A DNA stretch of 64,000 nucleotides from a virus. Position 1 is the first letter of the stretch; every line of letters starts with the position of its first letter. The notes beneath the pieces were generated by a model, which saw only the letters and a program-made list of their open reading frames with translations, ran no database searches and was not told the DNA's origin. The position numbers and the translations under genes are program-made. Positions 1 to 2,741 of this stretch are shown piece after piece. The DNA is taken from positions 1 through 64,000 of IMG/VR virus record IMGVR_UViG_3300021490_000002; one strand, given 5' to 3'.

Positions 1-587
1 CTTACGTAAGACATAGCAAACTTTTGGGAAAAAGGTAAAACTACAAAGATACCTTTTTCCCAATGAGTCCCACCATTGCTGGTGTTTTTCCAGCAATGGT
101 GGAATATAGTATGGTCAAAACTGTCAACTGACAGTTTTGACCAGCTCCCTACCATTGTTTCTTTCTCTTTATATAATCCGATAAATACCTTTGCTTGTTT
201 CTCCTCTTTTAATGGAATCCTTTGTTTTTCAATTACTATTTGATTGACACAGTCAATCAAATAGTAATCCCTAGACAATATTTTTGGTGGACGGACACAC
301 AAGCTGTTTTGGAAGGTTATAAGTAAGGGATAGTCTAAACTATCAAGGGATATATCCCTTGATAGTTTAATTTGCGGATTGTTCTTGTGACTATAAGCAC
401 ACTCCACGTCAAAATAAATCCAGTTATCCGTTTCCTTGAGTTTCCTTAAGGAAACGGATAACTTTAATTCAACAATGTTAAAAAATCTTTTCCTGTATCC
501 CTTGAAACCAATAAGTTTTTTGGCTTCAAGAGGATGTTCTCTTAAAAATTTCCTTGCTTCACTGAAAGAATTAAATTTGTTTTGCAT
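1..587 (-). CDS. Hypothetical protein, partial, hairpin-rich gene
   Basis: An open frame of at least 195 codons starts at the ATG on 585-587 and runs off the left edge without a stop. The start is set by an AAGGGGGG ribosome binding site at about 595-602. The protein begins MQNKFNSFSEARKFL, is rich in K, L, S and F, and resembles no family I recognise. The coding sequence is broken up by strong inverted repeats (24-63, 70-102, 112-143, 232-268, 336-369, 422-463, 501-530), yet the frame stays open through all of them, so both arms encode protein. It follows the HTH gene at 614-1213 by 26 bp in the same direction and is probably co-transcribed with it. The open frame and RBS make it real; the function is unknown. 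Confidence 0.7.
   Translation of the reverse strand, partial: MQNKFNSFSEARKFLREHPLEAKKLIGFKGYRKRFFNIVELKLSVSLRKLKETDNWIYFDVECAYSHKNNPQIKLSRDISLDSLDYPLLITFQNSLCVRPPKILSRDYYLIDCVNQIVIEKQRIPLKEEKQAKVFIGLYKEKETMVGSWSKLSVDSFDHTIFHHCWKNTSNGGTHWEKGIFVVLPFSQKFAMSYV
24..463. repeat. Array of perfect inverted repeats inside the partial gene
   Basis: Hairpin arms read from the sequence: 24-37/50-63 (14 bp), 70-82/90-102 (13 bp), 112-126/129-143 (15 bp), 232-248/252-268 (17 bp), 336-350/355-369 (15 bp, whole 34-nt element palindromic) and 422-437/448-463 (16 bp). Each has its own sequence, so this is not one dispersed repeat. A further stem at 501-510/521-530 has one mismatch, an A-C pair on the plus strand that would be a G-U pair in the minus-strand transcript. 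A perfect 10-bp palindrome lies at 1-10. Confidence 0.9.
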
Positions 588-613
588 AATAAACCCCCCT
601 TAAGTTATTGATT

Positions 614-1213
614 TTATTGACAAATTTCCTTTTGTCCATACATTGTGTTATTGTCCAATGTATGGACAAATTTTATCTCATACCTTTTCAAATAATCTTT
701 AATTTTCCTTTTCAAGGATTTGTACAAGTAAGCGTCAGGGTACTCTATCCCGTCCAGGGATAGCGTATAAGCAAAATTCAAGAGATAATCTTTCAAATGT
801 TCCCTTTCTATCCCGCTTAAGAGATAGGGAACATTTGAAATGATTTTATTTACATAACCATAAACCGATATGGGATTGTCCAAATAATCCCATATCGGTT
901 TAAATTTTTTATTCTTTTTTGTCTTGACAGTTTCAGAGTAGTCTGGATTGTCCATGTACTTTTGGAACAGTCTATGTGCTGTTCCATGTGGACAATCCAA
1001 TATTTCGCCTATCTGACGATAGGTGAAATTAAAGGATTTTCTCAAGACATATACATGCCTTGAGAAAATTCTTCTTTCGTCAAAATTCATTTCATAAATT
1101 TTAGTGATAGTCTTAATCCTTAGTTCGGGATTAAGACTATCACTAAAATTTTTCTCCAGGTTTTTTAACCTGGAGAAAAGATATTTTTTTGTATAGCAAT
1201 TAAGATTTAACAT
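614..1213 (-). CDS. HTH DNA-binding protein, hairpin-rich gene
   Basis: A 199-residue protein. Residues about 57-90 read as a helix-turn-helix of the sigma-70 region 4 / resolvase type (RKSFNFTYRQIGEILDCPHG), where FTYRQIGEIL would be the first helix and the following residues the recognition helix. The rest is basic (K/R-rich) and unrecognised. The start at 1213 is preceded by GGAG about 9 nt upstream. The gene lies just downstream of an intrinsic terminator (1246-1293), with only about 30 nt between, so its expression may depend on read-through. The coding region is packed with hairpins of up to 24 bp. It could be a regulator acting on the repeat-rich region at 1430-1970; that is inference from proximity. 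No paralogue is seen in the window. Confidence 0.65.
   Translation of the reverse strand: MLNLNCYTKKYLFSRLKNLEKNFSDSLNPELRIKTITKIYEMNFDERRIFSRHVYVLRKSFNFTYRQIGEILDCPHGTAHRLFQKYMDNPDYSETVKTKKNKKFKPIWDYLDNPISVYGYVNKIISNVPYLLSGIEREHLKDYLLNFAYTLSLDGIEYPDAYLYKSLKRKIKDYLKRYEIKFVHTLDNNTMYGQKEICQ
631..1179. repeat. Array of inverted repeats inside the HTH gene
   Basis: Arms read directly: 631-645/656-670 (15 bp), 741-751/757-767 (one mismatch), 791-805/826-840 (15 bp), 861-877/886-902 (17 bp), 944-954/989-999 enclosing 963-970/979-986, 1003-1013/1018-1028 (one G-T), 1036-1046/1059-1069 (11 bp), 1096-1119/1128-1151 (24 bp) and 1150-1162/1167-1179 (13 bp). Mean spacing is about 60 nt. Base composition alone would give a 13-bp perfect hairpin with a loop of 20 nt or less roughly once per thousand such regions. 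Confidence 0.9.
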
Positions 1214-1245
1214 CTTTCTTTCTCCAAATTTTTAAAGGTTAAACG

Positions 1246-1293
1246 AAAAAAAAAGGCAATACAATTTTAAGATAAACTTAAAATTGTATTGCC
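1246..1293 (-). terminator. Intrinsic terminator, minus strand
   Basis: A perfect 17-bp stem (1255-1271/1277-1293, 5-nt loop) is followed on the minus strand by nine T residues (1246-1254). This is a strong Rho-independent terminator for leftward transcription. It overlaps the end of the 31-codon gene and lies 33 nt upstream of the HTH gene start, so it separates the two or attenuates the latter. Confidence 0.85.
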
Positions 1294-1373
1294 CACAGAT
1301 AACCAACATAGCAACTAGCGATTATACTAGTTGCTACAAATACAAAATTTTTAACATAGTTTAAAATTTTCAT
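1278..1373 (-). CDS. Small single-pass membrane protein (31 aa)
   Basis: A 31-codon frame begins at the ATG on 1371-1373, with GAGGT about 9 nt upstream inside a purine-rich tract. The product starts MKILNYVKN and continues with a hydrophobic stretch of about 20 residues (FVFVATSIIASCYVGYLWAI), which reads as one transmembrane helix or an uncleaved signal anchor with a short basic N-terminus. The stop lies in the stem of the terminator at 1246-1293. A 10-bp hairpin (1309-1318/1327-1336) falls within the coding sequence, matching the hairpin habit of the next two genes. It could be a holin-like, toxin-like or leader peptide; no homologue is recognised. RBS, start, hydrophobic core and terminator together make it credible. 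Confidence 0.55.
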   Translation of the reverse strand: MKILNYVKNFVFVATSIIASCYVGYLWAIQF

Positions 1374-1638
1374 TTTCCATACCTCTTTTTTTTCTTTTTT
1401 CCTTGACATTACCAACAATCACTTATCTATATGCTATACCCATGCCAAATGTATGATATACACATAATTTATATAAAATTTTTATAAATATGCGGAATCA
1501 CTGGAAAAATTTTAAAATTGCCAAAATATAGACACCAATTTTTTTGATTTTACATTGACATTTATTTTTATATTGACAAAATTTGAAATAGCGATTTTAC
1601 AAAATTTCATAAATGTATAAATTTTTTGAAAAATATTG

Positions 1639-1698
1639 TTGACAAAAATTGTCAAAAAATTACAAAAATTGTCAGCGTAATTACAAAAAAATTGTCAA
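1639..1698. repeat. Three iteron-like units at exact 21-nt spacing
   Basis: Units beginning at 1639, 1660 and 1681 share the pattern TTrCAAAAATTGTCA, the third with two extra A. The 21-nt period is two turns of B-DNA, so a protein bound at each would sit on the same face. The first unit is a near-palindrome (TTGACA...TGTCAA). Confidence 0.75.
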
Positions 1699-1750
1699 TA
1701 TAAAATAGTCAAAAAAGCGACATTATATTCAAAAACCATGCCAAAATTAT

Positions 1751-1824
1751 ATATGCAATGTGTGTGCCATGTGTATGATATATGCAAGAGATGTGCCAAT
1801 GGTGCATATGCAAGGGGTGTGCCA
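1751..1824. repeat. Three 19-nt direct repeats
   Basis: Copies at 1751-1769, 1780-1798 and 1806-1824 follow the consensus ATATGCAA..G.TGTGCCA. Related words (CCATGCCAA, TGTATGATATA) occur near 1440-1460 and 1737-1782. They are likely protein-binding sites. Confidence 0.75.
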
Positions 1825-1851
1825 AGACGGGGGCGGGTGGCGCACTAGGCC

Positions 1852-1964
1852 TCTCTCACATATATAGTAAAATTTTACTATAAAGATTCTTATTAAATTT
1901 TTACCGTAAGAGTTTTTATAAGAGTTTTAGTAAGAATCCTTCTCTCACATATATAGTAAAATTT
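1852..1964. repeat. 24-nt direct repeat pair with palindrome and inverted repeat
   Basis: An identical 24-nt element beginning TCTCTCACATATATAG occurs at 1852-1875 and 1941-1964. The first copy extends into a perfect 20-bp palindrome at 1863-1882. Between the copies lies an inverted repeat, 1885-1897/1926-1938, with one G-T pair. Confidence 0.8.
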
Positions 1965-2249
1965 CATAATGGAAGCTTTGTAGAGACCCACTTCTATACG
2001 CATTAAGTCCGATGGAGCATTCTCCCCTCCAGATGTATGAGGAGTGTGTTAGAATAATTCCGTGTAATCCTGTGTAATCCTGAATTTTCGGGAATTTTGT
2101 ATTTTAAATGATTTCAGTGGGTTAAATGGTAGAATGGGTGTTCTTACAGCGAGGATATGGAGTGAAGTTGGTGTTGTAATGTGTTGAAATTATTGTTTAA
2201 AAAATGAAATTTTGAGGAATTTGAAGGAATATTGAGATTTGTGGAGATT

Positions 2250-2282: not shown

Positions 2283-2741
2283 TTATTTGTGTGTGCAGTT
2301 TAGGTTGACTATGTTTTCGTGGTAATTTTTCATTATATTGTTGACGTTTAACCACTTGTTTTTTGTTGGGAGGAGTATTGTTCCCGTCAGTCTTCCATAA
2401 AAACCATATCTCCTATCGTGTAGCTGGAGGAGAACTGGGGTGGGAGGATGGAGTAAGGTTTCTAAGTATTCCTTCTCCCCAGTTCCCATTAAAATGACTT
2501 TGTCTATGGATACTCCACATGAGGATGCCTGCCTCTTTCCCTTCCTCCCAGACCTAACCTCAAACGTGTCTATGCCAGATAACCTGACTACACGATTACC
2601 TCTGAATGTGCAATTACACTCAACAGTATCACCATCTATTACCCTGACTAAAATACAATAATCATAAGAAGGTAAAAACGACGAAGAAAACCCAGAGAAA
2701 ATAAAAATTGATGAGATTAATAATAAAAGGTATTTTTTCAT
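2283..2741 (-). CDS. Secreted staphylococcal nuclease-like (SNc) protein
   Basis: A 152-residue protein. Residues 1-22 form a Sec-type signal peptide (MKKYLLLLISSIFIFSG, no lipobox). The rest follows the thermonuclease/SNc fold: VRVIDGDTVEC is the Asp-containing strand that binds calcium, RLSGIDTFEVR carries the IDTxE motif, and the YGFYGRLTG segment matches the DxYGR-type catalytic Arg region. It is short and the C-terminal helix is minimal. An AGGAGG site 10 nt upstream sets the start. Known family members hydrolyse DNA and RNA, and export implies action in the periplasm or outside. A role in degrading incoming rival DNA or released host DNA is inference. It shares an operon with the cell-wall protein at 2782. 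Confidence 0.75.
   Translation of the reverse strand: MKKYLLLLISSIFIFSGFSSSFLPSYDYCILVRVIDGDTVECNCTFRGNRVVRLSGIDTFEVRSGRKGKRQASSCGVSIDKVILMGTGEKEYLETLLHPPTPVLLQLHDRRYGFYGRLTGTILLPTKNKWLNVNNIMKNYHENIVNLNCTHK

Follow-up and report, generated by a model that had tools for sequence, protein, structure and literature searches.

Introduction

Sigma-54 (RpoN) promoters stay off unless opened by an ATP-driven activator, and the usual cues are nitrogen, stress, and motility. The activators usually bind upstream of the promoter. In the phage literature, work on phage-encoded sigma-54-like proteins (PMC7693777, PMC3391216) and on the role of host rpoN in phage susceptibility (PMC8744999) has been published. 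Sigma-54 promoter arrays in phages were not described in the open-access literature that we searched, so that any novelty is provisional. With that proviso, the control of a phage gene block by host sigma-54 in the manner proposed here was not previously known.

Here we analyze a non-coding gap of a phage genome which a first-pass annotation had regarded as a candidate replication origin or control center with iteron-like repeats. The idea of a control center is retained, in the form of sigma-54 promoter boxes, whereas iterons and an origin find little support. That the "iterons" look like sigma-54 boxes suggests that the phage probably switches on a gene block through the sigma-54 system of its host.

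Results

The phage and its composite map. The window, the whole stretch of 64,000 nucleotides that was analyzed, corresponds to positions 1 to 64,000 at the left end of the 81,254-bp IMG/VR contig IMGVR_UViG_3300021490_000002. Two other contigs, IMGVR_UViG_3300021482_000007 and 3300021494_000001, derive from the same virus and overlap the window's contig and one another, with identities of 98.4-100% to the former and 94% to each other. Together, the three contigs close a circular composite of 101,895 bp (the map), with coordinate 1 at window position 1. The source is a tailed phage. It encodes a terminase-like protein at 50.8-52.4 kb (its tblastn relatives are annotated as large terminase), a PolA-family DNA polymerase, a DnaB-like primase-helicase, SbcC/SbcD-like proteins, and a ribonucleotide-reductase-like protein. 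The first 4 kb of the window had no match in the phage collection searched, and region 1214-2282 was found only in contigs of the same virus, as near-identical copies (99.9%). Distant relatives identified via terminase, polymerase, tail protein, and ribonucleotide reductase displayed no locus with this region, and the pattern TATGCAAN4TGTGCCA produced scattered matches in unrelated contigs. Over 11.2 kb, two of the contigs differ at 11 positions, three of which (window 1493, 1510, and 1521) are non-coding and fall just outside the repeats.

Repeats in the non-coding gap. The gap between called genes at 1214-2282 comprises 1,069 bp with 30% GC. It had been described as non-coding and AT-rich; it is AT-rich, but it is not empty, as it holds a plausible 31-aa ORF and a strong intrinsic terminator. 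We recovered the three 19-nt repeats, which start at 1751, 1780, and 1806 (spacings of 29 and 26), the exact 24-nt direct pair, and the perfect 20-bp palindrome (Table 1). A 13-bp inverted repeat (1870-1882/1952-1964) is also present, but it is not an independent element because it pairs one arm of the palindrome with the second 24-nt copy. The units reported with a 21-nt period (1639, 1660, 1681) begin roughly at these positions, but their TTGTCA cores are spaced by 20 and 23 nt, and Tandem Repeats Finder did not report a 21-nt array there. Two copies of the 19-nt repeat had been missed, a degenerate fourth one 26 bp further on and a fifth at 1432-1448, and all copies are on the minus strand.

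The repeats of the region exceed chance. Exact repeats reach 24 nt in length, compared to at most 14 nt in 200 dinucleotide shuffles, and TTGACA/TGTCAA-type words occur 10 times, compared to a mean of 0.75 and a maximum of 5 in 500 shuffles. No structured-RNA family of Rfam was detected at gathering score, and sliding folds gave values similar to those of shuffled sequences except at the terminator and for a weak signal around 2161-2360.

The 19-nt repeats resemble sigma-54 promoters. On the minus strand, the 19-nt repeats read TGGCAC-N5-TTGCA, the -24/-12 pattern of sigma-54. We scanned the 101.9-kb map with a matrix built from the 39 E. coli ChIP-seq sites printed in PMC4591121. Ranks 1 to 5 were all on the minus strand at 1432-1825, with scores of 20.2, 19.5, 18.2, 14.5, and 13.0 for boxes 1 to 5, the fifth tying with a site at map 76115. 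Scores of 18 or above are expected at 0.08 sites per shuffled genome, as against three observed within 72 bp. In a consensus scan of the map, two sites scored 13/13 and one scored 12/13, each of them in this region, while 20 shuffled genomes gave no site at 13/13 and two at 12. Of the six sites with two or fewer mismatches in the 64-kb window, five are in this same 394-bp stretch (1432-1825).

Boxes 1 to 3 all display the -24 GG and the -12 GC at fixed spacing within YTGGCACR-N4-TTGCW, and over the 15-nt core, box 1 is identical to the prpB site of E. coli given in PMC4591121. The upper four boxes form a series at 26, 29, and 26 bp, and the start predicted from box 5 is situated 48 nt upstream of the ATG of the 31-aa ORF. 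The boxes are in non-coding DNA and face downstream genes, with the ORF at 1278-1373 and the gene at 614-1213 on the same strand. The test is post hoc, because the idea of sigma-54 was prompted by viewing the sequence itself; the matrix is independent of the phage genome. In our judgment, the boxes are very probably sigma-54 sites. The three records of the virus gave no match to PF00158 or PF04552, and neither sigma-54 nor an activator was found in them, using an activator search that was positive in 14 of 14 control genomes; both proteins would therefore come from the host.

Table 1 Observed and predicted features in and around the gap at 1214-2282 (window coordinates)
Feature	Position	Strand	Remarks
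Sigma-54 box 1 (putative), TTGGCACACCCCTTGCA	1809-1825	-	Predicted +1 at 1798; rank 1 of map; 13/13 consensus
Sigma-54 box 2 (putative), TTGGCACATCTCTTGCA	1783-1799	-	Predicted +1 at 1772; rank 2; 13/13 consensus
Sigma-54 box 3 (putative), ATGGCACACACATTGCA	1754-1770	-	Predicted +1 at 1743; rank 3; 12/13 consensus
Degenerate box 4, TTGGCATGGTTTTTGAA	1728-1744	-	Rank 4; 2 mismatches
Weak box 5, TTGGCATGGGTATAGCA	1432-1448	-	Predicted +1 at 1421; tied rank 5; 11/13 consensus
24-nt direct repeat, copy 1	1852-1875		Overlaps palindrome 1863-1882; center at roughly -65 to -120 relative to the predicted starts of boxes 1-3
24-nt direct repeat, copy 2	1941-1964		Center at roughly -155 to -210 relative to the predicted starts of boxes 1-3
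20-bp perfect palindrome, TATAGTAAAATTTTACTATA	1863-1882		Overlaps 24-nt repeat copy 1
Three units of ~21 nt sharing a TTGTCA core, with palindrome TTGACAAAAATTGTCAA at 1639-1655	1639-1701		Candidate operator
Word TGTCAATATAAAA	1566-1578	-	Second copy at 1693-1705 (+); two more in gene leaders at map 99.6 and 100.2 kb
Lowest-GC 400 bp of the 101.9-kb map	1335-1734		20.7% GC
31-aa ORF with one hydrophobic stretch (MKILNYVKNFVFVATSIIASCYVGYLWAIQF) and GAGGT ahead	1278-1373	-	Inside ORF 1278-1418; putative gene
Intrinsic terminator, 17-18-bp perfect stem followed by T run	1254-1294	-	Fold z about -8
199-aa protein with sigma-70-region-4-like HTH	614-1213	-	Coding sequence full of perfect hairpins

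Elements flanking the boxes. Upstream of the boxes, the 24-nt pair is a candidate activator (enhancer) site, since it is found at the distance where sigma-54 activators usually bind. Downstream, the TTGACA/TGTCAA repeats are possibly operator or leader elements. The word TGTCAATATAAAA is present exactly four times on the 101.9-kb map, always between genes, with two of the copies in this gap in inverted orientation. Several early-region genes have related TGTCAATA words 32-47 nt ahead of their starts. When the TTGACA repeats were considered as sigma-70 promoters, 7 promoter-like sites were counted against 9.0 expected, and this reading was rejected.

In several libraries, the HTH of the protein encoded at 614-1213 (residues ~51-86) showed similarity to sigma-70 region 4, below every curated cut-off (TIGR02937, E=6.7e-5, below cut-off; PHROG sigma factor, E=0.0036). 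As sigma-70 region 4 reads TTGACA, the natural target of this HTH would be the TTGACA/TGTCAA repeats and not the 19-nt repeats. An AlphaFold model of the protein alone had a mean pLDDT of 43 and was discarded.

Window 24-1293 contains, within 1.3 kb, 13 of the 33 perfect hairpins (stem of at least 11 bp) of the map, mostly within two coding genes. Several small genes at map 95.9-101.7 kb (upstream part of L019), as well as window 601-670, have a common leader consisting of a hairpin, a TGTCAATA-type word 32-47 nt ahead of the start, and a GGGG-type ribosome site. Between strains L028 and L019 (94% identical), one leader-hairpin stem at map ~95,946-95,978 is altered on both sides, from TAGAAAG/CTTTCTA to TGGAAAG/CTTTCCA, with pairing kept. 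On the other side of the gap, window 2283-2741 encodes a protein that is leader-like at its N terminus and weakly similar to nucleases.

Tandem boxes in other viruses. Scanning IMG/VR for two tandem boxes gave at least 120 stretches, 117 of which were analyzed. Tandem box pairs are thus present at 117 or more loci, compared to 8 in all for a control spacer one base shorter, indicating that such arrays recur in viruses. Among the matches listed, the 117 stretches correspond to 105 distinct arrays, of which 15 fall within an ORF of at least 150 aa; this is not a count of independent origins, because some of the contigs may be mutual relatives or prophages and some matches are coding repeats. The positions left free in the search match the sigma-54 consensus among the matches listed, with Y before TGG, G/A after TGGCAC, and A/T after TTGC. 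Also among these matches, the commonest box spacing is 26 bp, and about one third of the spacings up to 60 bp are 25-29 bp.

The arrays vary in size and direction. One contig (L264) has up to ten boxes in a single direction, box direction alternates in L168 and L173, and a 147-kb virus contig (L288:15203-15972) has ~25 boxes in 800 bp with a ~27-bp period on both strands. Where both neighbors were called, 14 of 19 two-way arrays among the matches listed sit between divergent genes. Arrays are found near terminase or portal genes in L173, L166, and L203. No boxes were found near the terminase genes of three named phages with terminase relatives. No sigma-54 activator was found in eleven viral records with box arrays. 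A bacterial background sample of 7 genomes, too small to support a conclusion, gave no tandem-box match.

A tentative reading, to which we give somewhat less than even weight, is that packed sigma-54 box arrays (2 to more than 20 copies, often ~26-28 bp apart) may represent an undescribed recurrent viral device with which phages would take over, or soak up, host sigma-54 polymerase. The array in the window would then be a small one-direction member.

Discussion

We propose that region 1214-2282 would be the transcriptional control region of a leftward gene block, with sigma-54 promoters, three of them strong and one or two weak, all pointing left, the upper four 26-29 bp apart. Host RNA polymerase with host sigma-54 would wait at the boxes in closed complexes, to be opened by a host AAA+ activator, perhaps from the 24-nt pair 65-210 bp upstream. 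The leader RNA would then span the TTGACA/TGTCAA repeats, which may be an operator, followed by the 31-aa ORF and the terminator (1294-1254); read-through past the terminator would allow expression of the HTH gene as well as of the small genes rich in hairpins. On the basis of the nucleotide sequence, we consider it likely, with less assurance than the identity of the boxes themselves, that they act as promoters of this block. The strong terminator preceding the first large gene counts against this reading. In E. coli, sigma-54 binds many intragenic sites (PMC4591121), so that the presence of a box does not by itself imply promoter activity. The boxes cannot all be used at once, because a spacing of 26 bp overlaps the polymerase footprint.

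The same boxes might instead be a decoy, holding host sigma-54 or its polymerase off host genes, or forming a roadblock. A packing of 26-29 bp is near one sigma-54 footprint, and sigma-54 complexes bind stably without an activator, both of which would suit such a function. So would the far larger two-strand arrays of other viral contigs, such as that with ~25 boxes in 800 bp, which show no clear link to gene starts (of 55 boxes, 24 face a gene on the same strand). In this phage, however, there are only four or five boxes, directed one way toward downstream genes, and few copies per genome would bring about little titration; two-way arrays elsewhere are mostly between divergent genes (14 of 19), as expected of promoters. 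We regard a decoy as unlikely. Somewhat less probable still is that the 19-nt repeats are sites for a phage DNA-binding protein (terminase small subunit/pac, recombinase, or repressor) that merely look like sigma-54 boxes. The proximity of some arrays elsewhere to terminase or portal genes points in this direction, but the terminase-like protein of this phage is encoded far from the array, and one consensus across viruses of 34-65% GC favors a conserved host factor over a fast-changing phage protein.

The origin put forward in the first-pass annotation, with iterons beside AT-rich unwinding DNA, has several features in its favor. Positions 1335-1734 are the most AT-rich stretch of the map, the repeats are above chance, and hairpin-rich DNA lies alongside. 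Against this, the best repeats, although regularly spaced (29 and 26 bp), fit sigma-54 boxes at nearly every fixed position, and no initiator was recognized among the neighboring genes, whose products show similarity to a nuclease and to an HTH protein of the sigma-70 region 4 kind. The cumulative GC skew has no inflection at the region; its turns, near 8 kb and 57.4 kb, coincide with changes of gene orientation. Moreover, a larger non-coding region of 1.9 kb (L028:8424-10350; map 88,852-90,776) is richer in iteron-like repeats. A ~24-nt TTGAAATTATTA-type repeat occurs there five times in direct and several times in inverted orientation, and this region is a better origin candidate than 1214-2282. 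An origin at 1214-2282 thus seems improbable to us, and sigma-54 promoters remain the preferred reading.

A phage gene block under tandem sigma-54 promoters would couple the phage program to the physiological state of the host. If the other viral arrays work alike, RpoN-based phage regulation would be widespread, and this is directly testable.

Compared with the sigma-54 promoters of E. coli prpB, glnK, and glnA (PMC4591121), the phage boxes have the same TGGCAC-N5-TTGC core with fixed GG and GC. Possible activator sites 65-210 bp upstream and the orientation toward a downstream gene are likewise shared with E. coli. The phage differs in having four boxes in tandem 26-29 bp apart and in that no sigma-54 or activator of its own was found. 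With iteron origins of the P1 and lambda O type, the region shares short direct repeats beside AT-rich DNA, but its repeats fit sigma-54 boxes, there is no skew turn and no recognized initiator, and a better candidate is present elsewhere on the phage's own map. As in the T7-type origin, the phage has a PolA-family polymerase, a DnaB-like primase-helicase, and promoters, here predicted ones, beside its AT-richest tract; where the T7 type has promoters for the phage polymerase, this phage has sigma-54 boxes.
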